Part shown: positions 1 through 15,294 of the stretch, piece after piece | Numbering within the stretch: the stretch's first letter is position 1 | How the letters are laid out: every line of letters begins with the position of its first letter | NCBI GenBank assembly: GCA_003223295.1 | Contig: QHYM01000318.1 | Coordinates: 1 to 46,972, forward strand | Length of the DNA: 46,972 nt | Origin: Acidobacteriota bacterium | Lineage (GTDB): Bacteria; Acidobacteriota; Terriglobia; Acidiferrales; UBA7541 | Direction of reading: 5' to 3' | Translations under genes and position numbers: made by a program | Notes under the pieces: model-generated | Seen by the model: only the letters and a program-made list of their open reading frames with translations | Databases searched by the model: none | What the model was told of the DNA's origin: nothing

Positions 1-846
1 CTCACTGTGGGACACTCCGTGGCCGCCGCGCTCATCAGCACCTTGTGGGTAGGATTTGCCTGGGCCTGGGTTTCCGCACTCTCAAGAACTTCTACATTCC
101 AGGGATTGGACCAGCGATTCGCCCCCCATCTGCGCACCCTCTTCGGCGCCGGATTCTTGCTCTATTTGCTGGCCATCGCCTATCACTATGTGATTCTCTC
201 GCTGGAAGCCTCACGCGAAGCTGAAGCTCGTGCGTTGGAAACCAGCATCCAGGCGCGTGATGCCGAGTTGAAGGCCCTGAAAGCCCAGATCAATCCGCAC
301 TTCCTCTTCAACAGCCTGAATTCCATCAGCGCTTTGACCAGCATCGATGCATCGCGCGCGCGCGATATGTGCGTTCTGCTCGGTGACTTCTTGCGCTTAA
401 CTCTGGGCCTGGGCGAAAAAACCTCCGTGCGGCTTTCCGAGGAATTGGACTTGCTTCAAAAATACTTAGCCATTGAAATGGTCCGCTTTGGCACACGATT
501 GAAGATCCATGAGGAGATTCAGGAAGAGTCCAGGGGCTGCCTGCTTCCGCCTCTGCTGCTCCAGCCGCTGCTCGAGAACGCCGTTAAGCACGGCATCGCC
601 GGGCTTCCCGAAGGCGGCGATGTGCGCCTGTCCGCACAGCGACAGAACGGACGGCTGTCCATCCTCGTCGAGAATTCCTGGGACCCCGAAGCTCCGCCCC
701 GCCGCTCGGGCGGCCGTGGACTCAATAACGTGCAGCGTCGTCTGGAGGCGCGCTACGGAAAAGACGCCAGCCTGCGCGTGAACACCGAAGGCGAAGTTTT
801 TCAAGTCAGCCTGGATCTTCCAGCGGAAAGCGAGGAAAAAGCGTGA
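1..846 (+). CDS. LytS-type sensor histidine kinase, 5'-truncated by window edge
   Basis: This is a membrane sensor kinase that would phosphorylate the LytTR regulator encoded next. The frame is open to base 1 and the first in-window start is GTG at 7, so the true start probably lies upstream. Counting from that GTG, two hydrophobic segments (about 4-22 and 45-63) are followed by a charged helix (65-93). The His_kinase domain has the phospho-acceptor His98 in NPHFLFNSLNS. A HATPase domain has the N-box LLENAVKHG (about 188-196) and a glycine motif GGRGLNNV (about 235-242). This NPHFLFN type is the LytS/YehU class. Its stop overlaps the next gene's GTG (GTGA), so the two are translationally coupled. 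The missing N-terminus may hold further membrane segments or a ligand domain. Confidence 0.93.
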   Translation, partial: LTVGHSVAAALISTLWVGFAWAWVSALSRTSTFQGLDQRFAPHLRTLFGAGFLLYLLAIAYHYVILSLEASREAEARALETSIQARDAELKALKAQINPHFLFNSLNSISALTSIDASRARDMCVLLGDFLRLTLGLGEKTSVRLSEELDLLQKYLAIEMVRFGTRLKIHEEIQEESRGCLLPPLLLQPLLENAVKHGIAGLPEGGDVRLSAQRQNGRLSILVENSWDPEAPPRRSGGRGLNNVQRRLEARYGKDASLRVNTEGEVFQVSLDLPAESEEKA

Positions 847-1607
847 GCCCCGCGCCGGACAAAAAATGGAAGGCGCTCATCGTCGATGACGAAGAGCTCG
901 CGCGCCATGTCATTCGCGAGTATCTGCAATCTCATCCAGAGATCGAAGTCGCAGCCGAGTGCGTCAACGGAATGGAAGCCGTAAAAGCTGTTGCCGAACA
1001 CAAGCCGAATTTGATTTTCCTCGACGTGCAGATGCCGAAACTGACCGGCTTCGATGTCTTGGAACTGATTGGCACCGACGTGCCCGTCATCTTTGTAACC
1101 GCCTACGATCAATACGCCATGCGCGCCTTCGACGTCCACGCCGTCGATTATTTGTTGAAGCCCATCGGCCGCGAGCGCTTTGACGCCGCCCTGCAACGAG
1201 CGAAAACGCGTCTCGGTGAAAAAATGCCGTCCGCGCATGAGCTCGCTGCCGCGGCCCGTCCTCCGCAACAATTTCTCGAGCGCCTGGTGGTCAAGGACGG
1301 CACGCGCGTGACGCTCATTCCCGTCGCCAAGCTCGATTATGTCGAGGCCCAGGACGACTACGTCGCTCTCGCCAGTCAGGGAAAGAAACATCTCAAGCAG
1401 CAGACCATTACCAGCCTGGAAGCCTGCCTCGATCCAAACTGCTTCGTCCGCATTCACCGCTCTTATATTGTGAATTTGGAGAGGGTCGTGCGCATCGAGC
1501 CTTATGGAAAAGACAGCCGCCTGGCCATCCTCAGCGACGGCACGCGCCTGCTGGTGAGCCGCACTGGCTACGCACGTCTCCAGTCGCTCCTCGACGAGCG
1601 AAAGTAA
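843..1607 (+). CDS. LytTR-family response regulator
   Basis: This is a cytoplasmic DNA-binding response regulator, partner of the preceding LytS-type kinase, of 254 aa as usual for the LytR/AlgR family. The receiver domain (about 10-125) has the acidic pair D15-D16, phospho-acceptor D61 (FLDVQMP), T86 and K106 (LLKP), all expected residues. The LytTR DNA-binding domain occupies about 150-250 (LVVKDGTRVTLIPVAKLDYVEAQDDYV, and FVRIHRSYIVNLERV). Start is GTG at 843, overlapping the kinase stop by four bases. Regulated targets cannot be read from the sequence. No obvious rightward target gene follows, because the next gene is on the opposite strand. Confidence 0.95.
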   Translation: MSPAPDKKWKALIVDDEELARHVIREYLQSHPEIEVAAECVNGMEAVKAVAEHKPNLIFLDVQMPKLTGFDVLELIGTDVPVIFVTAYDQYAMRAFDVHAVDYLLKPIGRERFDAALQRAKTRLGEKMPSAHELAAAARPPQQFLERLVVKDGTRVTLIPVAKLDYVEAQDDYVALASQGKKHLKQQTITSLEACLDPNCFVRIHRSYIVNLERVVRIEPYGKDSRLAILSDGTRLLVSRTGYARLQSLLDERK

Positions 1608-1777: not shown

Positions 1778-2443
1778 TCAGCCCAGCTTCTTCACCCAAA
1801 TGCGGCTCGTGGCGGGCTTGCCAAGATGGACAGTCTTTCCCTCCACGCGCAACGTCATGGTTTCATCGTACTCGCGGTTCAGCACGTCTACGGTCGTGGC
1901 GGGCCGCAGGTGCAGCCCTTCCAAAAATTCTAAAAACTGGCCATCCTTTTCGTACACGCAAAGGATTTCGCCGGAGTCCTTCGCGCGCAAATCCGCAAGC
2001 AGCACCGCGCCTTGCTTTCGCAGCGTCGCGATGCCCCCGCGCATTGGCACACCATGCGGGCAGCTCTTTTTGTCCCCGAAGCGTTTGATCAGCAGCGCTT
2101 CCACCTCGGGTGAAATTGCATGCTCGAGGCGTTCGGCTTCATCGTGCGCTTTGGCCCAGGAAAGCCCGATTACGTCCGTCAGCAGCATTTCCGCAAGCTG
2201 GTGGCGTAGAGCAAGATGCTCCGCAAACTTTCTGCCCTTCTGTGTGAGGGCAATTTGCCCGCTGCGGTGCACGCGCACGTGCCCGTCGCGCGTCATGCGT
2301 TTCAGCGCCGCCGTCACCGCGGGCGGAGTGACCTGCAATTCCTCGGCGAGCCGCGCGCTGATCGGCGTCTGGTTCTCTTCCAGCATTTCCCAAATCGCCT
2401 TCAGGTAATCTTCTTGCGATACGCTGGTTTTTTCTCGCCGCAA
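1778..2443 (-). CDS. DtxR/MntR-family metal-dependent repressor with FeoA-like tail
   Basis: This is a metal-sensing transcriptional repressor of 221 aa. An N-terminal winged helix (about 8-70; ISARLAEELQVTPPAVTAALKRM) is followed by the dimerisation and metal-binding helices (75-140) and a C-terminal FeoA/SH3-like part. The ligand region is H100-D-E-A-E104-R-L-E107-H108. The position that is Cys102 in DtxR/IdeR is Glu here, and the N-terminal ligand is Asp12 rather than Met, which resembles Mn-sensing MntR. However, the residue matching MntR Glu11 is Lys15. A C128-P-H130 motif follows. It is the last gene of the pdx operon, nine bases after the phosphatase gene. Metal preference (Mn or Fe) is inference. 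No metal transporter gene is visible in the window. Confidence 0.9.
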   Translation of the reverse strand: MRREKTSVSQEDYLKAIWEMLEENQTPISARLAEELQVTPPAVTAALKRMTRDGHVRVHRSGQIALTQKGRKFAEHLALRHQLAEMLLTDVIGLSWAKAHDEAERLEHAISPEVEALLIKRFGDKKSCPHGVPMRGGIATLRKQGAVLLADLRAKDSGEILCVYEKDGQFLEFLEGLHLRPATTVDVLNREYDETMTLRVEGKTVHLGKPATSRIWVKKLG

Positions 2444-2452
2444 ACACAGCTC

Positions 2453-2920
2453 CTACCGTGCCGCTCTCTGGCTCATCCGTTTTCCCCGCAAACTGAGCAC
2501 GAGTTGATTCACGCGCCGCCGGATTCCTTCGAAAACGCGCTGATATGTTTCCGGATCCTCGCCATAAGGATCCTGCACGATCCAATCTTCAACTTTTTCA
2601 AGGCCGCGAAAAATGTCCTCGCGCGATCTTCCGGTCATGTTGATAATGAGTTCCGCTGCCTCCGTGGCCGCTCGCGTGAGAATGCTGGACGTCAGCCCAT
2701 TCGTGGAATAGCCGTTCTTCATGAGCGTCTGCTTCGTGAGCTCCGCAAGGTATCCCAGGGGGGACAATCCCGCGCTGGAGGGCTCCATCACGTCGGCGGC
2801 GTCGTAGCGCGCAATCGCTTCCGCCATGGGACTCCGGCAGGCGTTCCCAACGCACACGAACAGGACTCGCACGCGGTGGGAGCGTGACGTCCCCGGTGCT
2901 GCTGGTTTTTCCTTTTTCAC
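2453..2920 (-). CDS. Low-molecular-weight protein tyrosine phosphatase / arsenate reductase-like
   Basis: This is a 155-aa cytosolic phosphatase-fold protein. The P-loop CVGNACRS begins at Cys23 and fits CX5R (Cys23 to Arg29), with an extra Cys28. The general-acid loop is WIVQDPYGED, with Asp117 as the likely acid. These are the hallmarks of the LMW-PTP family, which includes thioredoxin-linked ArsC. The sequence alone does not separate protein-phosphatase from arsenate-reductase activity. Its ATG overlaps the pdxT stop by four bases, and it is followed nine bases later by the DtxR-like regulator, so it is co-transcribed with the vitamin B6 genes. A role in dephosphorylating a small phosphate ester is conceivable, but nothing in the sequence shows it. 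Confidence 0.9.
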   Translation of the reverse strand: MKKEKPAAPGTSRSHRVRVLFVCVGNACRSPMAEAIARYDAADVMEPSSAGLSPLGYLAELTKQTLMKNGYSTNGLTSSILTRAATEAAELIINMTGRSREDIFRGLEKVEDWIVQDPYGEDPETYQRVFEGIRRRVNQLVLSLRGKRMSQRAAR

Positions 2921-3522
2921 GATGAGGACTTGCCGCCGTTCGTTGGCTGCTTTGCTCTTGCCTTTGCCAGGCTCAGAAAATGTTCGTGCACTGTCGTGTC
3001 GTCCGTCAATTCGGGATGAAAGGTCGCCGCCATGATATTTTCGCGCTGCACCAGCGCCGGTTTCCCCGCGTATTCCGCAAGAACCTTTACGCCCGGTCCG
3101 GCGCGTTCAATCACCGGTCCGCGAATAAATACCATTTCGAGCGGCTCTTTTTTGAGCACCGTGGGCCCGCTCACCACGTCGCTGGCGATTTGCCGCCCGT
3201 ACGCGTTTCGAACCACGGTCATGTCCATGAGATGCAACGAGTCTTGCTCCGGGTGCCTCACGTCGCTGGCGAGGAGGATGGCCCCGGCGCACGTTCCAAA
3301 AATGGCTCCGCCGCGCTCGGCAAATTTCACAATCTTGTCGGCCAGCCCTTCTTCCTGCAAGAATTTGAGTTGTGTCGTGCTTTCTCCGCCCGGAAGAATC
3401 AGGCCGTCGCAGCCTTCAAGATCGGCGGGAGTGCGCACTTCGGCGGTTTGCGCGCCGAGCTGTTCCAGCATCGTCGCGTGCGCTTCGAAATCTCCCTGCA
3501 CTGCCAAAATGCCGATCTTCAC
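2917..3522 (-). CDS. pdxT: Pyridoxal 5'-phosphate synthase glutaminase subunit PdxT
   Basis: PdxT hydrolyses glutamine and channels ammonia to PdxS in the ribose-5-phosphate-dependent route to PLP. The 201-aa protein is a class I glutamine amidotransferase. The nucleophile is Cys78 in FGTCAGAI, and the His169/Glu171 pair lies in TFHPELT. The PdxT motif LPGGEST is at about 43-49. I chose the GTG at 3522 because the product then begins MKIGILAVQGDFEAH as in the family, and GAGG lies eight bases upstream. An ATG 90 bases further upstream would add an unconserved tail overlapping pdxS. It lies 83 bases after pdxS and overlaps the phosphatase gene by four bases. Confidence 0.96.
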   Translation of the reverse strand: MKIGILAVQGDFEAHATMLEQLGAQTAEVRTPADLEGCDGLILPGGESTTQLKFLQEEGLADKIVKFAERGGAIFGTCAGAILLASDVRHPEQDSLHLMDMTVVRNAYGRQIASDVVSGPTVLKKEPLEMVFIRGPVIERAGPGVKVLAEYAGKPALVQRENIMAATFHPELTDDTTVHEHFLSLAKARAKQPTNGGKSSS

Positions 3523-3605
3523 TTCAATCGCCTCGAAATAACGCGCTCCGCGACTCGAAGCCCTCTGGCTTGAACGCTGAGAAACTGATGACTGAAAACC
3601 TCTCT

Positions 3606-4526
3606 TCACCATCCGCGCGTCGACAGCATGTCTTTTTCTTCCAACTGCCGCACGTCCAAGCCGCGCATGGCCTCGCCCAACTCTTCGTGCGCTTCGAGCA
3701 CCGCCTTGGCATCTTCAAAGTGCGTGGTCGACTTCACAACCGCCTTCGCGCGCGCCTCGGGATCGCTGGACTTGAAAATCCCCGACCCGACGAACACCGC
3801 CTCCGCGCCCAGCCTCCGTACTAACGCGGCGTCCGCCGGCGTGGCGATTCCACCCGCAGAAAAATTCGGTACCGGCAATTTCCCAGTCTTCGCGATTTGA
3901 CGGACCAGATCTAGCGGAGCGCCCAACTCTTTCGCTTCGTGCATCAATTCGTCGTCGCGCATGGTGGTGAGCTTCTTCATCTGGCTCACGATGGTGCGCA
4001 TGTGCCGCACCGCCTCGACGACGTTGCCCGAGCCGGCTTCGCCCTTCGTTCGAATCATCGCCGCGCCTTCCGCGATGCGCCGCAGCGCTTCGCCCAGATT
4101 GCGCGCCCCACAAACGAACGGAACGCGGTAATCATGCTTCCAGATGTGGTTCTCTTCGTCGGCAGGCGTGAGCACTTCGCTCTCGTCAATGAAGTCCACT
4201 TCGAGCGCTTGCAGAACTTCCGCTTCCGCAAAATGTCCGATGCGCACCTTGGCCATCACCGGAATCGTGACCGTGGCCATGATTTCGCGAATCACTTTGA
4301 TGGACGCCATCCGCGCCACGCCGCCCTCTTTGCGGATGTCCGACGGCACGCGCTCCAGTGCCATCACCGCGCATGCTCCCGCGTTTTCGGCGATTTTCGC
4401 CTGCTCCGCGTTGGTGACGTCCATGATCACGCCGCCTTTGAGCATTTCGGCGAGACCCACTTTCACGCGCCACTCATTCGAGCCTTTGCTGCCGTTGCCG
4501 CTGCCGTTTGGCTTTTTCACTTCCAT
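3606..4526 (-). CDS. pdxS: Pyridoxal 5'-phosphate synthase subunit PdxS
   Basis: PdxS is the TIM-barrel synthase that makes PLP from ribose 5-phosphate, glyceraldehyde 3-phosphate and ammonia supplied by PdxT. The 306-aa protein carries the catalytic lysines at K93 (VMAKVRIGH) and K161 (IRTKGEAG) and the conserved Asp36, all offset by 12 from the Bacillus subtilis numbering (K81, K149, D24). The first ~20 residues (a Gly/Asn/Ser/Lys-rich tail) are a variable extension. It sits 55 bases after the thioesterase gene and 83 before pdxT. Length and motifs are complete, so this should be a functional DXP-independent PLP synthase. I see no pdxA or pdxJ in the window. Confidence 0.98.
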
Positions 4527-4581
4527 ATTCCTTCTCCTCTCAATCCGAAAACTTTTCCACGTTCTTCACACCCAATGTCTG

Positions 4582-5013
4582 CTATTTCCGGCTAATCACC
4601 ACGAATCGCCCTTTGCCCCGCGCCAGCACGTCGCCGCTCTCGTTTCGAATCTCGCCGGTCATGAACAAATTCCTTCCCTGCATTTCGGACTCGCGTCCTT
4701 CCACGACAATTTCGTTCTCCACTTTAACCGGCTTCAGATACTCCACCGTTAATTCCGCGGTCACGGCGCGAACGTCGCGGAACCGGCAAACCTTGCCCAT
4801 CGCTTCATCCAGCAGCAGCGCGATGATTCCGCCGTGCGCGAATCCCCCGCCGCCTTGATACCGCTCGCCCAGCACGAACCGCCCCATGATCCTGCGGTTT
4901 ACGTTGTCCTGTTCGAACGTCAGCTTCATTCCGCCGGCGTTGGCCCCGCCGCAGCCAAAGCATTGGTTCGTCGGATTCGGCTCCAGCCTGACGGTGTCAG
5001 CCACTGCCTTCAC
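4582..5013 (-). CDS. PaaI/YbgC-like hotdog-fold thioesterase
   Basis: This is a predicted acyl-CoA-type thioesterase of 143 aa. The N-terminal NQCFGCG motif (Cys18 and Cys21) followed by NAGGMKL, and the core GGFAHGGIIALLLDEAMG (about 57-72), are typical of the 4HBT/PaaI hotdog superfamily, where the HGG loop and the acidic residue on the long helix form the active site. Its ATG overlaps the pdxR stop by four bases, so it is translationally coupled to that regulator and precedes pdxS by 55 bases. The substrate is unknown. Its place inside a PLP operon is unusual and no link is established. Confidence 0.88.
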   Translation of the reverse strand: MKAVADTVRLEPNPTNQCFGCGGANAGGMKLTFEQDNVNRRIMGRFVLGERYQGGGGFAHGGIIALLLDEAMGKVCRFRDVRAVTAELTVEYLKPVKVENEIVVEGRESEMQGRNLFMTGEIRNESGDVLARGKGRFVVISRK

Positions 5014-6554
5014 ACCAACGCCACGCGGCTGCGTTCCGCTCGCCGCACGCCGCGCTGCCGCTTGCGCATCTCCACCTTCAGCATTTCCGCCAACGTCGCC
5101 ACGCCACGCGCAATTTGCTTTTCATCCAGGCTGGCAAAGCCGAGCCGCAGCGTATTCGGCAGCGGGCTTTGCACGTAGAAGTAGCGCCCCGGCGCAAACA
5201 GCACGCCGCGCTCCTTCACGTGAATCAGGAGTTCGCTCGCGTCGAATCCGGGCGGCAATTCCAGCCACATGCACATCCCGCCTTCCGGCCGCACCCAGCG
5301 CGTGCCTTCCGGCATGTGCTTCCGCAAAGCTTCATCCAGCGCCGCTAGCCGCGCGGTATAGATTTTGCGCATCTTGGCCAGGTGTTTGCTGAAAAGCCCG
5401 CGCCGCAAAAATTCCGCCAGCGTTGCTTGCGCCAATTGGTCGGTGTGCAGGTCGGTCGTCTGCTTGACCACGCGCAACCGCTCGATCGCCTGCGGGGGAG
5501 CGACAATCCAGCCCACACGCAATCCCGGAAACGCCACCTTCGCGAAGCTGTCGATGTGAATCACCAGATTCGAACGGTCCAGTTGTTTCAGCGAAGGGAT
5601 GCGTTCTTCCCGCGCATGCAGCCGCGCATAAATATGATCCTCGACCACGGGCACCTGGTAGCGCCCCGCCAGTTCCAGCAATTTTCGCCGCGAAGCCAGC
5701 GGCATCGACACGCCCGTAGGATTCTGAAAATCCGGAGTCAGCAGAATCAGCTTCACGCGATTCGCCGCCAGCGTCGCTTCCAGCGCTTCTAGGTCGAGCC
5801 CCAACGAGGTCCCCGGCTCCGCGTGCATGCGCACCGGGACGCTCAGGCAGCGCGCCCGCGCTCCGTGAAAAATCGCCACAGCGCCGGGATACGTCGGGTT
5901 CTCCATGATGACCGAGTCTCCCGGACGCACGAACGCCTTGCTGATCAAATCAAAGGACTGCTGGCACCCGTCGGTGATGAGCAGGTTCTCATCTTTCGCA
6001 GTGATTCCGTCGTGATGCAACAGTTCCAGCAAGGCGGCCTTCAACGGGGGATAGCCGTCCGAGGGGCCCAGAGTCAAGACGTCCGTGCCTTCGCGCCGCA
6101 GCACGGCGTTTACGCAAATCTGCAACTCGTCAATGGGGAAAAATTCCGGCGCGGGACACGCCATCACGAAAGACAAAGCATTTCCCGGCACCCCCGCGGT
6201 CAGCCGGCTCAGTACCTCTTCTCCGCGTTCATCGGCAAACAGCAGTTCCCAACGAACGCCTCCGTTGCCACTCAGCACCGGCGGAGCAGGCGGCGTGATT
6301 TTCAGGCCGTTGCCATTTCCCTTGATGAACGTGCCGCGGCCCACGTGCCCTTGAATCAACCCTTCCGATTCCAATTCCGCGTACGCGTTCGCCACCGTGG
6401 TGCGGTGTACGCCCAGCATGGTGGCCAGTTCGCGGCTTGCCGGAATGCGGTCGCCCGGGCGCAAATCACCGGCATGCACCAGGGCGCGCAATTGATCGCG
6501 AAGCTGAACATATAGAGGGACGTGGCTTTGTGGCTGGAGATGAAGTGGAAGCAT
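5010..6554 (-). CDS. pdxR: MocR-family regulator, probable PdxR (GntR HTH + aminotransferase fold)
   Basis: MocR regulators fuse a GntR winged helix to a class I aminotransferase-like domain that senses PLP. In this 514-aa protein the wHTH spans about 10-78 (RIPASRELATMLGVHRTTVANAYAELE). The aminotransferase domain spans about 110-500 and keeps the PLP contacts: DFQNPTG (Asn278), Asp306 in VVEDHIY, the Schiff-base Lys339 in DSFAKVAFPGLRVGW and Arg346. In known systems PdxR activates pdxST when PLP is low and usually represses itself. Here it leads the same transcript as pdxST rather than being divergent, and a palindromic operator lies just upstream of its start. The name PdxR rests on this context. 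Confidence 0.9.
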   Translation of the reverse strand: MLPLHLQPQSHVPLYVQLRDQLRALVHAGDLRPGDRIPASRELATMLGVHRTTVANAYAELESEGLIQGHVGRGTFIKGNGNGLKITPPAPPVLSGNGGVRWELLFADERGEEVLSRLTAGVPGNALSFVMACPAPEFFPIDELQICVNAVLRREGTDVLTLGPSDGYPPLKAALLELLHHDGITAKDENLLITDGCQQSFDLISKAFVRPGDSVIMENPTYPGAVAIFHGARARCLSVPVRMHAEPGTSLGLDLEALEATLAANRVKLILLTPDFQNPTGVSMPLASRRKLLELAGRYQVPVVEDHIYARLHAREERIPSLKQLDRSNLVIHIDSFAKVAFPGLRVGWIVAPPQAIERLRVVKQTTDLHTDQLAQATLAEFLRRGLFSKHLAKMRKIYTARLAALDEALRKHMPEGTRWVRPEGGMCMWLELPPGFDASELLIHVKERGVLFAPGRYFYVQSPLPNTLRLGFASLDEKQIARGVATLAEMLKVEMRKRQRGVRRAERSRVALV

Positions 6555-6568
6555 TGTCTCTCACCCTC

Positions 6569-6609
6569 AGCCAATTGTAGCAGAGATTGGCCTGCTACAA
6601 GAGCCAATT
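6569..6609 (-). promoter_or_regulatory. Probable PdxR operator and promoter of the pdx operon
   Basis: Two perfect 9-base arms, TTGTAGCAG (6575-6583) and CTGCTACAA (6592-6600), form an inverted repeat around an 8-base spacer. GCCAAT occurs three times: at 6570-6575, inverted at 6586-6591, and at 6603-6608, with 16-17 base spacing. The repeats cover a minus-strand -10-like TACAAT (6579 to 6574) and a -35-like TTGTAG (6600 to 6595) only 15 bases apart, which is short. The site ends 15 bases before the pdxR ATG at 6554. Mixed direct and inverted repeats are typical of MocR/PdxR operators, so PdxR is the likely binder. Confidence 0.65.
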
Positions 6610-6729
6610 TGTCTTCCGCGATTTGGGCCTCCGGCTCAAACGAAAAGGGTAGCGCGATTTCCCCGCTCATCGTCAGCCTGCCCTTCAAAACCCATGAGAC
6701 CACGCTTTAGGGGCTTTAGGGGTGGCTGC

Positions 6730-6758
6730 TTGACACTGGCTTCTTTCACTTCTAGGCT
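6730..6758 (+). promoter_or_regulatory. Possible promoter of the parDE module (leaderless)
   Basis: TTGACA (6730-6735) is a perfect -35 box. Seventeen bases downstream lies a weak -10 match, TAGGCT (6753-6758). Only seven bases separate it from the ATG at 6766, so transcription would start at or next to the start codon. No Shine-Dalgarno sequence is visible, which agrees with a leaderless message. Confidence 0.4.
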
Positions 6759-6765
6759 TGAGAAT

Positions 6766-7047
6766 ATGGAAGTCCGATTGAGTCCCGACCAGGAAGCCTT
6801 CATCCGCCGGGCCATCGAGTCCGGCCGGTTTCACCGCACCGAGGATGCCATACAGGAAGCGCTATCGCTGTGGGAAGAACGCGAGCGCAGGCGCACTGAA
6901 ATCCTGGCGGCTGCGGGCACTGCGGAAGCTTCCCTTGCCCGTGGCGAGGGCCGCGTGCTCACACAACAGTCTATGCGAGAGCTCGCCGATGAAGTAAAAC
7001 AGCGCGGCCAGGCCCGCCTTGCTTCCGAACCAGAATCACGCCGCTAA
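6766..7047 (+). CDS. ParD/CopG-like ribbon-helix-helix antitoxin
   Basis: This small protein of 93 aa starts at the ATG at 6766 with MEVRLSPDQEAFIRRAIESGRF and continues with HRTEDAIQEALSLWEERERRR. This beta-strand/helix/helix layout is the ParD-type ribbon-helix-helix fold. The C-terminal part is charged and helical and would wrap the toxin. It would bind DNA to repress its own promoter and neutralise the ParE toxin. The stop and the toxin ATG share one base (TAATG). The antitoxin is intact while the toxin frame is broken. A start further upstream in the same frame (6694) would add unconserved residues. Confidence 0.85.
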   Translation: MEVRLSPDQEAFIRRAIESGRFHRTEDAIQEALSLWEERERRRTEILAAAGTAEASLARGEGRVLTQQSMRELADEVKQRGQARLASEPESRR

Positions 7048-7339
7048 TGGCTCATTGCCTTGCTCCAGAAGTTGAAACTGAGCTGGACGAAATCTGGTAT
7101 TACACCGCCCGAGAGAGCGGCAGCACCCAAATCGCCAACCGCCTCATTGATTCCATCACAGAGCGCTTTTTCCTTCTCGCTGGCTTCCCTACGCAGGCCG
7201 CCTTCGCAACGATTTACGGCCCGGTTTGCGCAGCTTTCCTGTCGGAGACTCGGTCATCTTCTACCGCATCGCGGGGGAGGACGTGCACATTCTCCACGTG
7301 GTACACGGCAGACGTGACATTGAAACGCAAATGGGCTAA
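7047..7339 (+). pseudogene. ParE/RelE-family toxin, frameshifted
   Basis: The first 48 codons (LAPEVETELDEIWYYTARESGS, then NRLIDSITERFFLLAGFP) read as a ParE N-terminus. After about 7188-7190 the family sequence continues only in another frame: YAGRLRNDLRPGLRSFPVGD, then SVIFYRIAGEDVHILHVVHG and RRDIETQMG, stopping with TAA at 7337-7339. One base appears to be missing around the FPY codons. The original frame runs on to a meaningless C-terminus ending at 7361. If the lesion is real, the toxin lacks its C-terminal catalytic strands and would be inactive. A sequencing or assembly error is the main alternative. The gene begins one base into the antitoxin stop codon. Confidence 0.85.
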
Positions 7340-7354
7340 TTCCTTTTGGAGACC

Positions 7355-9598
7355 ATGGTGAACCTAAGGAAGCGATTGCGGGTGGCTTTGCCCGCGCTCT
7401 TTGTGATTGTGCTTCTGGTAGTTCTGCTCGCTGCCAATCTGCGCGGCCAACAATCTACCGCGTCCATGCCAGCCCCTGTCTCAGCCGCCAATTCCAGCGG
7501 CTTCCCTCCCCCGATGAATTGGACTGCCGACGAGGACCATCAGAACATGATGGATCAGCTCGGCATCAATGCGCTCCGCCCTGGCCCGAGCGGAAACGAA
7601 AACGCGCCCAATCACGCGAATTACCACGAATCGAAAGCAAATCCCTTCCCCGATCTTCCTGACGTGCTCACCCTGAAGAACGGCAAGAAGGTTACGAGTG
7701 CACAAGTGTGGTGGACGCAGCGCCGACCCGAAATCGTCGAAGATTTTGAACGCGAGGTGATTGGCCGCGTCCCCAAGAATGTGCCAAACGTGACGTGGAC
7801 TGTAGTCAATTCGGAAAACGCTGTGGTCGCCTCTCACCCGGTGATCAAGCAGCAGCTCGTTGGGCATATCGATAATTCGTCGTACCCGCTCATCAGCGTG
7901 GACATCCAAATGCTCCTCGTGCGACCGGCGGATGCTGCTGCTCCGGTTTCCGTGATGATGATGTTTGGCCGCGGCGATTTTGCGCGAGCCGGGGCCGCGC
8001 CGCTGCCGTTCGCCATTCCCGGCGCCCCGGGATCTCCCGGCAGTGATCCACCGGCAACGGAACAACTCATCACCGATGGCTGGGGCTACGCGTACATCAA
8101 TCCCGCAAGCATTCAGGCGGACAATGGCGCAGGCCTGACCAAAGGAATTATTGGGCTGGTCAACAAAGGCAAGCCGCGCAAGCCGGATGATTGGGGCGCA
8201 CTGCGGGCATGGGCATGGGGTGCATCTCGAGGCCTCGATTATCTCGAGACCGACAAAGCCGTGGACGCGAAACATGTCGGCATCGAAGGGGTTTCGCGTT
8301 ATGGGAAAGCCGCGCTACTGACAATGGCCCTCGACAGGCGCTTCGCCCTGGTGCTCGTTGGTTCTTCCGGCGAAGGAGGCGCAAAACTACATCGCCGAAA
8401 TTTTGGGGAAGCCGTCGAAAATCTCACCGGCTCCGGCGAATACCACTGGATGGCCGGCAACTTCCTGAAGTATGGCGCCGCGGAAGCTACTTTTGGCAGC
8501 AAGAACGCTGGCGACCTGCCCGTGGACGCGCACGAACTCATCGCCTTGTGCGCGCCACGCTTGACCTTCATCAGCTACGGCGTGCCGGAGAAGGGCGATG
8601 CGAAATGGCTCGACCAACAAGGCAGCTATATGGCCACAGTGGCCGCCGAGCGGGTATTTCGGCTGCTCGGAGCGAGAGACTTGGGAGTTGCGGAGGATTA
8701 TTACACCGCAAAACTGCCGCCAATCAAAACGGGCTTGCTCGATGGCGAGCTCGCGTGGCGCCAGCACGATGGCGGACACACCGATGGCCCGAATTGGAAA
8801 TACTTCATTACCTGGGCGGACAGATTCCTACATCACAAAGCTGCTTTTGCGCCGGCCCCTGCACCGGTGGTCCCGCTTCCGGCCGATCAGCCCGCTCCTC
8901 GCACCGATCCCAATTCGCTCATCGCCCACGAGCAGTTGCTGGACAAAACAAAGAAAGGCCGCATCGACATTTATTTTGAAGGCGATTCCATCACCCGCCG
9001 CTGGGGAGCGACCGATTATCCGGAGCTGCTTGCCAACTGGAAGCAAAGTTTCTTTGGCTGGAACGCGGCCGATTTTGGCTGGGGCGCCGACAAAACCGAA
9101 AACATTCTTTGGCGGCTCGAAAATGGCGAACTCGATGGAGTCAATCCGAAAATCGTCGTCCTTCTCGCAGGAACCAACAATGTCGGCCGCACTGTGCCCG
9201 CCGCCGGCGACGCCAAAGTTGCGGACGTCACGAATGGCATTCAGGCCATCCTCCGCGCCCTTCAGGCCAAGGCGCCCGACGCGACAATCATTCTGACCGC
9301 GATTTTTCCGCGGAACGATAACCCCGCGGTCATGCCGATCATTGACAGAATCAACGAAAATCTGTCCAAACTGGCTGATGGCAAAAAGATTCGCCTCCTG
9401 AATGTCAACGATAAATTGGCGGACCGCGACGGTAAGCTGTTCGACGGCGTGATGAATCCTGACAAACTGCATCCCGCGCTCAAGGGCTACCAGGTTTGGG
9501 CCGACGCATTAAAGCCCATCCTCACGGAACTGCTCGGTCCGCCGGCGAAGGAAGATCACGCGCCACCTCCCACCGGCGATCCCGGCGCCGCGCACTAA
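7355..9598 (+). CDS. Secreted CE15 glucuronoyl esterase fused to SGNH/GDSL esterase
   Basis: This is a two-domain carbohydrate esterase of about 747 aa. A signal-anchor (about 8-30, FVIVLLVVLLAANLRG) directs export. The CE15-like domain (about 100-495) has the nucleophile motif GVSRYG (Ser near 314), SGEGG (about 338-342) and HDGGHTD (His near 475). A proline-rich linker (about 498-517) follows. The SGNH domain (about 535-725) has GDSIT (Ser near 545), GADKTENI, GTNN and DKLHP (Asp/His). CE15 enzymes split lignin-glucuronoxylan ester bonds; SGNH domains often remove acetyl groups from xylan, so both may act on the same hemicellulose. I chose the ATG at 7355. It follows the broken parE by 15 bases. 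Confidence 0.88.
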   Translation: MVNLRKRLRVALPALFVIVLLVVLLAANLRGQQSTASMPAPVSAANSSGFPPPMNWTADEDHQNMMDQLGINALRPGPSGNENAPNHANYHESKANPFPDLPDVLTLKNGKKVTSAQVWWTQRRPEIVEDFEREVIGRVPKNVPNVTWTVVNSENAVVASHPVIKQQLVGHIDNSSYPLISVDIQMLLVRPADAAAPVSVMMMFGRGDFARAGAAPLPFAIPGAPGSPGSDPPATEQLITDGWGYAYINPASIQADNGAGLTKGIIGLVNKGKPRKPDDWGALRAWAWGASRGLDYLETDKAVDAKHVGIEGVSRYGKAALLTMALDRRFALVLVGSSGEGGAKLHRRNFGEAVENLTGSGEYHWMAGNFLKYGAAEATFGSKNAGDLPVDAHELIALCAPRLTFISYGVPEKGDAKWLDQQGSYMATVAAERVFRLLGARDLGVAEDYYTAKLPPIKTGLLDGELAWRQHDGGHTDGPNWKYFITWADRFLHHKAAFAPAPAPVVPLPADQPAPRTDPNSLIAHEQLLDKTKKGRIDIYFEGDSITRRWGATDYPELLANWKQSFFGWNAADFGWGADKTENILWRLENGELDGVNPKIVVLLAGTNNVGRTVPAAGDAKVADVTNGIQAILRALQAKAPDATIILTAIFPRNDNPAVMPIIDRINENLSKLADGKKIRLLNVNDKLADRDGKLFDGVMNPDKLHPALKGYQVWADALKPILTELLGPPAKEDHAPPPTGDPGAAH

Positions 9599-14142: not shown

Positions 14143-15294
14143 ATGGAAACGCCATCGACAGCCAAGACGCCCGAGACCGCGAAAACTATCGACACGCCGC
14201 TGGCCGTCGTTTACGCCGGCACGGGCGCGAAGATGGGTTTGTGGTTTGGCTGCGCGCTGCCCAATGATTTTGGCAACGCAGAGGCCGAGTACCGCTATCT
14301 CAATCAGAGCGTGGCGCTGGTGGACAAGAATTACCGCGCGTACCTGGCGTTCACCGGGCCGGACCGCGTGCGCTACTTGAACGCCATTCTGACGAACAAC
14401 ATCAAGGACCTGGCCGCGGGACAAGGCACGGTGTCGCTGCTGCTGAATCCACAAGGACACATTCTGGCAGAGATCGAAACCTATGCGCTGGCGGACCGGC
14501 TTTTTTGCGTGTCCTACGCCATGATTCGCGAGCAACTGGCTTCGTGGATGGACAAGTACATCATCATGGACGACGTGACGCTGAGGGACGAGACGGAGCG
14601 CTGGGGCACATTGGCGCTGGAGGGGCCGAAGGCTGCCGCGGTCGTGAAGGACGTCGCGGGGGTGGATTTGAGCCAGTTGAACGAGCTTGCCAGTGTTGAC
14701 GCTGAGATCGTTCGCTTCGCTCAGGATGACAACATAAAGAGGGCGCCAATTCCCTGCCGGCTTGTGAAGCGCTCGCCGGGGGGAGTGGCCGCGGCGGAGT
14801 TTGTTGGGGAGCGCGGCCAACTGACAGCGCTTTGGGAGGTTTTGCTGGAGGCGGCGCGCAAACAGGGCGGCGGACCGGCGGGATATACGGCGCTGAGCGG
14901 GCGGCGGCTGGAGTTGGGAGTGCCGTGGTTCGGCTACGACTTTGGGGAAAAGCAGATTCCGCACGAGGCCGGACTGGAAAACAGCCACATCAGCTACACC
15001 AAGGGCTGCTACACGGGTCAGGAGATCGTGGAGCGCGTGCGCTCGCGCGGGCACGTGAACCGGCGGCGCGTTGGACTGCTTTTTTCCGGTGACGCCGTTC
15101 CCGAGGCGGGCGCGGCGCTGACGCTGGAAGGTAAAGAAGCAGGCAACGTCACGCGAGCGGCACGAATTTGGTATCCGGCGCGGGTGATCGGCATGGGCTA
15201 TGTCCGCAAAGAGGCGGAAGCGCCGGGGACTGCCCTCCAGTGGGCGGGAGGAACCGCCATGGTCGTCCGTTTGCCCCTTGAGATGAAGAGCTAA
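14143..15294 (+). CDS. ygfZ: YgfZ/GcvT-type folate-binding protein
   Basis: This is a folate-dependent protein of the YgfZ (IBA57-like) family, which helps build or repair iron-sulfur clusters. The 383-aa protein has a GcvT-like fold and the diagnostic YgfZ motif KGCYTGQEIVERVRSRGH (about 287-304) with its conserved cysteine. FTGPDRVRYLNAILTNNIKDL (about 70-90) is the N-terminal family signature. At about residues 188-199 the stretch EIVRFAQDDNIK looks like translation of an inserted dispersed repeat (14700-14732), in frame. Start is ATG at 14143, preceded by GAGAG. It is divergent from the MBL gene, with under 100 bases between them. No glycine cleavage genes are adjacent, which favours YgfZ over GcvT. 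Confidence 0.88.
   Translation: METPSTAKTPETAKTIDTPLAVVYAGTGAKMGLWFGCALPNDFGNAEAEYRYLNQSVALVDKNYRAYLAFTGPDRVRYLNAILTNNIKDLAAGQGTVSLLLNPQGHILAEIETYALADRLFCVSYAMIREQLASWMDKYIIMDDVTLRDETERWGTLALEGPKAAAVVKDVAGVDLSQLNELASVDAEIVRFAQDDNIKRAPIPCRLVKRSPGGVAAAEFVGERGQLTALWEVLLEAARKQGGGPAGYTALSGRRLELGVPWFGYDFGEKQIPHEAGLENSHISYTKGCYTGQEIVERVRSRGHVNRRRVGLLFSGDAVPEAGAALTLEGKEAGNVTRAARIWYPARVIGMGYVRKEAEAPGTALQWAGGTAMVVRLPLEMKS
14700..14732 (-). repeat. TGTCATCCTGAGCG dispersed repeat inside ygfZ
   Basis: On the minus strand this reads TGTCATCCTGAGCGAAGCGA followed by ACGATC. It resembles the element at 13143-13206 and keeps the ygfZ reading frame open, adding about 12 residues to a loop between conserved blocks. 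Confidence 0.55.

Follow-up and report, generated by a model that had tools for sequence, protein, structure and literature searches.

The stretch of DNA analysed here, hereafter the window, is a whole contig of 46,972 nucleotides (QHYM01000318.1) from GCA_003223295.1, the assembly of a soil member of the Acidobacteriota (order Acidiferrales), and the six genes that fill positions 1778-6554 on its minus strand probably form the pyridoxal 5′-phosphate (PLP) synthesis operon of this order, with its own regulator as first gene and repression by feedback. The six, which encode the regulator PdxR, a hotdog thioesterase, the synthase subunits PdxS and PdxT, a low-molecular-weight (LMW) phosphatase and a DtxR/MntR-type repressor, lie in a conserved order behind a conserved operator that is unique in its own assembly. 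From this arrangement we infer that they are co-transcribed; control of the operon by PdxR in this genome is very likely, and negative feedback is somewhat favoured over activation. According to the mechanism we propose, a single promoter before pdxR would be covered by half-sites in alternation, ATTGGC at 0 and +33 and GCCAAT at +17 (in the window's genus) and at +50/51 (GCCAAT or GACAAT), to which PdxR, a MocR-type protein, would bind. With the core promoter and start codon both under these boxes, PLP-loaded PdxR would most likely repress the whole operon, and PLP would thereby limit its own synthesis and that of PdxR. The thioesterase and the phosphatase would be co-transcribed accessory genes of vitamin B6 supply, and the MntR-type repressor mainly a passenger that keeps its own, manganese-related job.

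Genome sample and scoring

The assembly is incomplete (6.03 Mb, 481 contigs, 95.2% complete). For the order, 95 genomes were sampled, of which 81 matched pdxS and 14 had no match at E ≤ 1e-50; 82 pdxS loci from the 81 genomes, the window among them, were scored. A draw across the phylum found pdxS in 104 of 396 genomes, our own included, and 99 of the 103 other matches were analysed (G163, G179, G202 and G233 were left out). Profiles were built from the proteins of the order, position and strand were scored relative to pdxS, and a locus was taken as scorable for a gene if its contig extends 1.5-4.3 kb beyond pdxS on the needed side or if the gene was found. Leader counts are based on the 66 of the 82 order loci that have a usable pdxR start. 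Neighbouring genes were called with a codon-score caller, and their starts are approximate.

A conserved element before pdxR

The element at 6553-6613, which sits just beyond the block end at 6554 and was absent from an earlier note on this DNA, we read as the predicted PdxR operator-promoter of the block, with PdxR as the presumed binding protein. Its 61-bp footprint holds two ATTGGC boxes 33 bp apart together with inverted GCCAAT boxes: box 1, GACAAATTGGCTCTT, lies at 6599-6613 with its ATTGGC at 6603-6608, an inverted GCCAAT follows at 6586-6591, box 2 (ATTGGC) occupies 6570-6575, and GACAAT at 6553-6558 covers the pdxR start codon. A repeat scan of the element returned the repeats D2, I3 and I5. 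Candidate −35 (TTGTAG, 6595-6600) and −10 (TACAAT, 6574-6579) hexamers lie within the footprint, separated by a 15-bp spacer.

Across the order, box 1 is found at ≤4 mismatches in all 66 usable pdxR leaders, 35 of them with zero mismatches; box 2, at ≤1 mismatch and 32/33 bp after box 1, in 62/66; and the inverted box that covers the start codon, at +50/51, in 61/66. The inverted GCCAAT at +17 is largely a trait of the window's genus (27/29 leaders, versus 7/37 in other genera). A comparison between genera (64 loci, 13 genera) gives an identity of 0.73 over box 1, a value biased because box 1 anchors the alignment, and 0.50 over the unanchored box 2/−10 region, as against 0.26 in each of three upstream windows. 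The pdxR site is the sole operator match at ≤3 mismatches in its own assembly (control, 0), and a search of the 95 order genomes for the exact pattern gave 35 sites in 34 genomes (control, 0), 29 of the sites on analysed pdxS contigs and six on other contigs. When the 82 loci (1.12 Mb, both strands) were searched for the two boxes together, 72 distinct sites emerged, compared with two in the reversed-sequence control, and the next gene was pdxR at 65, the thioesterase gene at one, and another gene or nothing at six.

Two loci from which pdxR is missing are informative. At one (L049) both boxes stand directly before the thioesterase gene, now the first of the block, and at the other (L046) box 1 and the stretch following it, with no second box, precede the thioesterase gene, again the first; hence the element seems tied to the block as a whole, not just to pdxR. 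Inspection by eye of the best 34 among 74 pdxS, 75 pdxT and 60 mntR leaders revealed no comparably conserved element, and a second operator before any of these genes, none being seen in those leaders, was dropped as a candidate. In other lineages of the phylum, pdxR leaders contain ATTGG/CCAAT-like boxes in different arrangements, as seen by eye and without a control.

The layout has parallels among MocR regulators, for which the available text of Suvorova and Rodionov (PMC5320631) gives two direct boxes plus one inverted box as the commonest motif structure (32% of regulons), with two or three helical turns between direct repeats. Searches of mainly open-access articles turned up no earlier description of this operator.

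Gene order and its conservation

Open reading frames and domain or equivalog models agree on the six leftward genes and their families (Table 1), as the earlier note had it, and its spacings are exact: 55 bp between the thioesterase gene and pdxS, 83 bp between pdxS and pdxT, and 9 bp between the phosphatase and MntR-type genes. It had also counted four-base overlaps at three junctions while naming two; these two exist, pdxR/thioesterase and pdxT/phosphatase, both with the sequence GTGA, and the third has no counterpart. No Rfam family reached its gathering score within the window, and a riboswitch or other RNA element in the block was dropped as a candidate on that account.

Table 1. Features of the PLP-synthesis block, with the model or motif on which each assignment is based.
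Feature	Position	Strand	Basis
Predicted PdxR operator/promoter	6553..6613	-	conserved boxes in order leaders
pdxR, MocR/GntR-family PLP-type regulator	5010..6554	-	NF052282, K339
PaaI/THEM4-like hotdog thioesterase	4582..5013	-	4HBT, HGG...DE
pdxS, PLP synthase lyase subunit	3606..4526	-	NF003215, TIGR00343
pdxT, PLP synthase glutaminase subunit	2917..3522, GTG start	-	TIGR03800
ArsC-like low-molecular-weight phosphatase	2453..2920	-	LMWPc, P-loop CVGNACRS, acid D117
DtxR/MntR-family repressor, FeoA-like C-terminus	1778..2443, TTG start	-	Fe_dep_repr_C, FeoA, Mn-type ligand set

The synteny that the earlier note wanted checked holds across the order. At scorable loci, the genes codirectional with pdxS are pdxR in 72/76, the thioesterase gene in 60/76, pdxT in 77/79, the phosphatase gene in 57/72 (opposite in one) and mntR in 59/70 (opposite in one), and the earlier reading of a conserved block, with a regulator joined to its target genes, is supported. 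All six are codirectional in 25 of the 50 loci that are complete on both sides; these represent six genera, 15 being from the window's genus, and the count misses one thioesterase gene (L086) because of a run of N. In a clustering of the 82 order loci, pdxT recurred in 76, pdxR in 70, mntR in 58, the thioesterase gene in 56 and the phosphatase gene in 50, compared with 32 for the top flanking family.

Beyond the order the block thins out stepwise. At 40 loci from other families of the class, pdxR is codirectional in 0/37 (opposite in one) and pdxT in 30/39, while the thioesterase gene lies upstream on the same strand in 24/40, often with an opposite-strand gene between, and the phosphatase and mntR genes are at 0/39. 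At 59 loci from the rest of the phylum, pdxR is codirectional in 33/57 and opposite in three, pdxT is codirectional in 54/58, and the thioesterase gene is found in 0/58 and the phosphatase and mntR genes in 0/53. Since the linkages reach the phylum, the class and the order, respectively, the block looks to have been built in layers: pdxR-pdxST, then thioesterase-pdxS, then phosphatase-mntR.

PdxR orientation and the sense of regulation

The pdxR product combines a GntR-type winged helix-turn-helix domain (PF00392, 66 bits) with an aminotransferase-like domain (PF00155, 142 bits), and the window protein, to which this score applies, passes the PdxR model NF052282 (PLP_TF_PdxR) narrowly, at 329 bits for a cut-off of 320; the PLP-binding lysine, K339, is kept in 69/69 PdxR proteins. 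One locus (L183) has pdxR split over two frames, by decay or by an assembly error inside the block. PdxS scores above both its equivalog cut-offs (NF003215, 498.7 bits for 395; TIGR00343, 455.5 for 438), as does PdxT (TIGR03800, 196 for 106), so that neighbouring genes encode the two equivalogs expected of a PLP synthase independent of 1-deoxy-D-xylulose 5-phosphate (DXP). For pdxT, an in-frame upstream ATG at 3612 offers an alternative start that would add 30 residues.

A divergent pdxR is usual in characterised cases, though no part of any definition, and the earlier note took it as the norm. That fits the characterised Firmicutes and Actinobacteria described in the accessible part of PMC5320631, but Acidobacteriota loci having pdxR mostly carry it codirectionally: none of the order's 76 scorable loci has it opposite and four have none nearby, and of the 57 scorable pdxS loci in other classes, where 33 are codirectional and three opposite as given above, 21 have none nearby. 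The codirectional arrangement is thus typical of the lineage.

In the divergons of Bacillus clausii, Corynebacterium glutamicum, Listeria monocytogenes and Streptococcus pneumoniae, according to that same portion of PMC5320631, apo-PdxR acts from the intergenic region that the two share, as activator of pdxST and repressor of pdxR, with PLP as anti-activator. The Acidobacteriota block resembles them in that a MocR-type PdxR adjoins pdxST and in operators of direct and/or inverted boxes, the direct repeats being spaced by two or three helical turns (PMC5320631, in part). It differs in that pdxR heads a same-strand block with one promoter for regulator and enzymes, the boxes cover the core promoter, the half-site is ATTGGC, and three extra genes are present. 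Where one promoter serves pdxR and pdxST, activation of the latter and repression of the former cannot both hold. The literature searched, mainly open-access articles, yielded no study of PdxR in Acidobacteriota; PMC9997740 brings Acidobacteri-, pdxS and pdxR together, and the portion consulted leaves regulators out.

The thioesterase

The thioesterase has a 4HBT domain (50 bits) and an HGG...DE motif that is invariant in 58/58 proteins. It falls short of the PaaI equivalog (44 bits, cut-off 118.9) and just exceeds the general hotdog model TIGR00369 (37.2, cut-off 36.6), and its structure model is poor (mean pLDDT 53.6). It thus shares the 4HBT domain and HGG...D motif with PaaI/THEM-like hotdog thioesterases, unlike which it is encoded ahead of pdxS in three families, all of one class, and scores below the PaaI cut-off. 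Because two more families of the class have the gene close to pdxS, its adjacency to pdxS is, judged by gene order, older than the order; in one of them (f93) it stands directly 5′ of pdxS in 5/5 genomes that have both, a sixth having no pdxS match. Distant relatives (30-41% identity) in families f3 and f96 and in genus g2 lie away from pdxS. No match to the thioesterase (E ≤ 1e-10) was found elsewhere in the genome in 15/15 order genomes without a copy at the locus; in a sixteenth scored as lacking it (G467) the gene is present behind a run of N. A seeming thioesterase-PdxS fusion in that same genome (L086, one 425-codon frame) was rejected as an artefact, the join holding the run of N.

At one locus of genus g1 (L003, identical to L189), the thioesterase match is cut to about the first 56 residues, by decay or an assembly error. 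At L074 (4212-5765) and in 16 further loci of the order there is a gene of the benzoate-CoA ligase family (TIGR02262, 540 bits for a cut-off of 375 in L074), whose end often lies upstream of the operator; its product is a possible partner of the thioesterase. Among the matching papers listed from a mainly open-access literature, no title or abstract opening showed a link between pdxS and a thioesterase.

The phosphatase

The phosphatase (LMWPc, 75 bits) has the CX5R(S/T) loop and Asp-Pro general acid of the LMW phosphatase superfamily, and its catalytic Cys, Arg, Ser and Asp are invariant in 57/57 proteins; the Asp-Pro we take to be the equivalent of Asp129 in human LMW-PTP. By sequence it is closest to arsenate reductases and YwlE, and it shares the CX5RS P-loop and Asp-Pro loop with ArsC and YwlE/Wzb-type phosphatases. 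It does not score as an ArsC (51 bits for 158, other ArsC models being lower). Thioredoxin-type ArsC requires further redox cysteines; unlike it, the window protein has two cysteines, both in the P-loop, with no extra redox cysteine, and is encoded with a PLP synthase. Most of the 57 relatives have two or three cysteines, and glutaredoxin-type arsenate reductase chemistry may be compatible with this number. The structure model is poor (mean pLDDT 60.1), and its best matches in the Protein Data Bank (PDB), LMW phosphatases and ArsC with a best E of 2e-4, add nothing beyond sequence.

The gene occurs in 64 of the 95 order genomes, in 58 of them within 8 kb of pdxS; in the other six, pdxS lies on another contig in three and has no match in three, one of which (G434) has a pdxS fragment adjoining the phosphatase gene. 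Among 16 order genomes whose locus lacks the gene or is cut, seven have no relative elsewhere (E ≤ 1e-5) and nine have only relatives of 27-41% identity. At one locus (L197) the phosphatase gene and mntR are inverted as a pair, so the two may travel together. According to the available text of PMC4480753, no known compound inhibits human LMW-PTP more potently than PLP, which acts at Asp129. Since no case of the phosphatase apart from pdxST was established in the order and the human enzyme is inhibited by PLP, these data suggest that a phosphatase/PLP link is strengthened as an idea and worth testing.

The MntR-type repressor

The last gene encodes a protein with Fe_dep_repress, Fe_dep_repr_C (78 bits) and FeoA (35 bits) domains, a three-domain plan like that of DtxR/MntR repressors with a FeoA domain; its best PDB match is 5zr4, a metal-dependent transcriptional regulator. 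It is called only MntR-type here because it passes neither the curated MntR models (107 bits for 350, NF047407; 66 for 153, NF008273) nor that for DtxR (118 for 290, NF053665). Unlike B. subtilis MntR, it has Lys in 60/60 proteins at what we take to be the position of E11, and it keeps the residues aligned with those that we presume to be numbered H79, E83 and H98 in DtxR, in a gene that ends a PLP block. D12, H81, E85, H100, E104, E107 and H108 are invariant in 60/60. Four of these form a D, E, E, H set like the manganese site of B. subtilis MntR (D8, E99, E102, H103), and the Mn-selective positions are D12 and E104 (Asp and Glu, not Met or Cys) in 60/60, the positions being those given in the consulted portion of PMC4805248.

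Thirteen of the genomes with an MntR-less or cut locus (cut in G473 and G475) were checked; nine of them carry an MntR copy elsewhere, 60-67% identical, and the other four have none elsewhere or relatives of ≤42% identity. Because MntR survives elsewhere in those nine, a coupling of the block to metal would be weak and is not supported. The earlier idea of joint regulation of PLP supply, acyl-thioester hydrolysis and metal status thus retains its order-wide co-location and is weakened in its metal part.

Alternative readings

Several observations weigh against a single feedback-repressed operon. Full codirectionality is seen in just half of the complete loci; some genera (g212, g216, g217) have extra genes within the block; the phosphatase-mntR pair is inverted relative to pdxST at L197; a subgroup of g221 has neither of these two genes at the locus; box 2 fails in 4/66 leaders and in L046; and a consensus sigma-70 scan returned zero sites at the operator-promoter, owing to the 15-bp candidate spacer. 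In g212 the inserts part pdxR from the thioesterase gene, and no operator precedes the latter in L057 and L058, so that a single transcript does not hold there. As to sign, activation is possible by analogy, given that the characterised PdxRs in the part of PMC5320631 consulted activate pdxST as apo-proteins and repress only pdxR. A more general division of the block into two or more transcripts, in which the operator would serve pdxR alone, or pdxR and the thioesterase gene, and pdxST would have a promoter in the 55-bp gap, appears quite improbable: a promoter would fit into the gaps of 55 and 83 bp, a purine-rich ribosome-binding site is retained in the pdxS leader and g212 has its intervening genes, but nothing promoter-like was seen to be conserved before pdxS across genera, terminator-like sites do not exceed the level of shuffled sequence (8 versus 6.7, standard deviation 3.3), and the operator heads the block where pdxR is gone.

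The other alternatives concern what holds the genes together. Common descent and promoter sharing, with no functional tie beyond pdxR-pdxS-pdxT, has a real though minor chance of being the whole explanation, as the thioesterase, phosphatase and MntR genes have each been lost or moved in some genera and other neighbours recur too (benzoate-CoA ligase family, molybdenum hydroxylase, radical SAM); yet the block genes recur in 50-76 of the 82 order loci, well above the top flanking family, and the thioesterase and phosphatase, unlike MntR, were not found off-locus in the genomes checked. A phosphatase functional in B6 balance, which would dephosphorylate excess PLP to pyridoxal or act as a PLP-inhibited reporter of the PLP pool, is rather unlikely: its invariant catalytic residues, its proximity to pdxS and the lack of close relatives elsewhere in the 16 genomes without an intact locus copy speak for it, whereas the gene is missing at 14/72 scorable loci, the genome-wide search covered the order and close relatives, the nearest sequences are arsenate reductases and YwlE, and the known bacterial PLP phosphatase, YbhA, is of the haloacid dehalogenase (HAD) type (PMC9997740, in the portion available). 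Less probable still is the earlier note's view of PLP supply, acyl-thioester hydrolysis and metal status as one co-regulated physiological module; it draws on the co-location, on the conserved metal ligands of MntR and on the thioesterase, which sits near pdxS in two further families and was not found elsewhere in the 15 order genomes lacking it at the locus, but the second MntR copies, the lack of a conserved element seen before mntR or pdxS, and the absence of the thioesterase gene from 16/76 scorable loci, one of them the N-gap artefact, tell against it. A fuller PLP-balancing circuit, in which PdxR would stop synthesis at high PLP, a dedicated LMW phosphatase would act on PLP or be gated by it as a B6 sensor or overflow valve, and the thioesterase would remove an acyl-thioester linked to B6 use, is similarly speculative and quite unlikely. 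We therefore retain the PdxR-headed, feedback-repressed operon as the preferred reading.

Neighbouring genes

Divergent from pdxR and about 150 bp from the operator, a pair of plus-strand frames occupies 6694-7361: a ParD-like antitoxin frame at 6694-7047 (likely start 6766) and, in the toxin's place, a 104-codon frame at 7047-7361 that matches no Pfam or NCBIfam model. It is followed on the same strand by a single protein (7346-9598) with glucuronyl-esterase-like and GDSL lipase domains; a few g1 loci (L186, L188) have homologues of this protein close to the block. On the other side, a LytTR response regulator gene (843-1607, plus strand) overlaps its upstream neighbour (7-846) by 4 bp, and the pair, spanning 7-1607, converges on mntR; the regulator is met again in 16 loci of the order. 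In several genera, at L053 (8512-10842) and 11 more loci of the order, mntR is followed downstream either by molybdenum hydroxylase genes with CoxG or by an aldehyde dehydrogenase gene, and this aldehyde-oxidising neighbour of a B6 locus may be a coincidence. The palindrome GGCRCRGCATGCYGYGCC, first met between pdxS and pdxT, has five sites among four genomes of g1 (L193:7947-7964, L200:8957-8974, L204:7230-7247 and 14749-14766, L209:8865-8882), any further loci listed being copies of these, and none in the window; it looks like a dispersed repeat.

Implications for vitamin B6 synthesis

On the preferred reading, Acidobacteriota would have a PdxR operator and a codirectional arrangement by which B6 synthesis limits itself. 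The thioesterase and the small phosphatase, which in close relatives are found mainly at this place, would point to a role in B6 balance. This raises the questions of which bacterial enzymes besides the HAD phosphatases act on the PLP pool, and of whether PLP inhibition of LMW phosphatases, known from the human enzyme, has a natural use.

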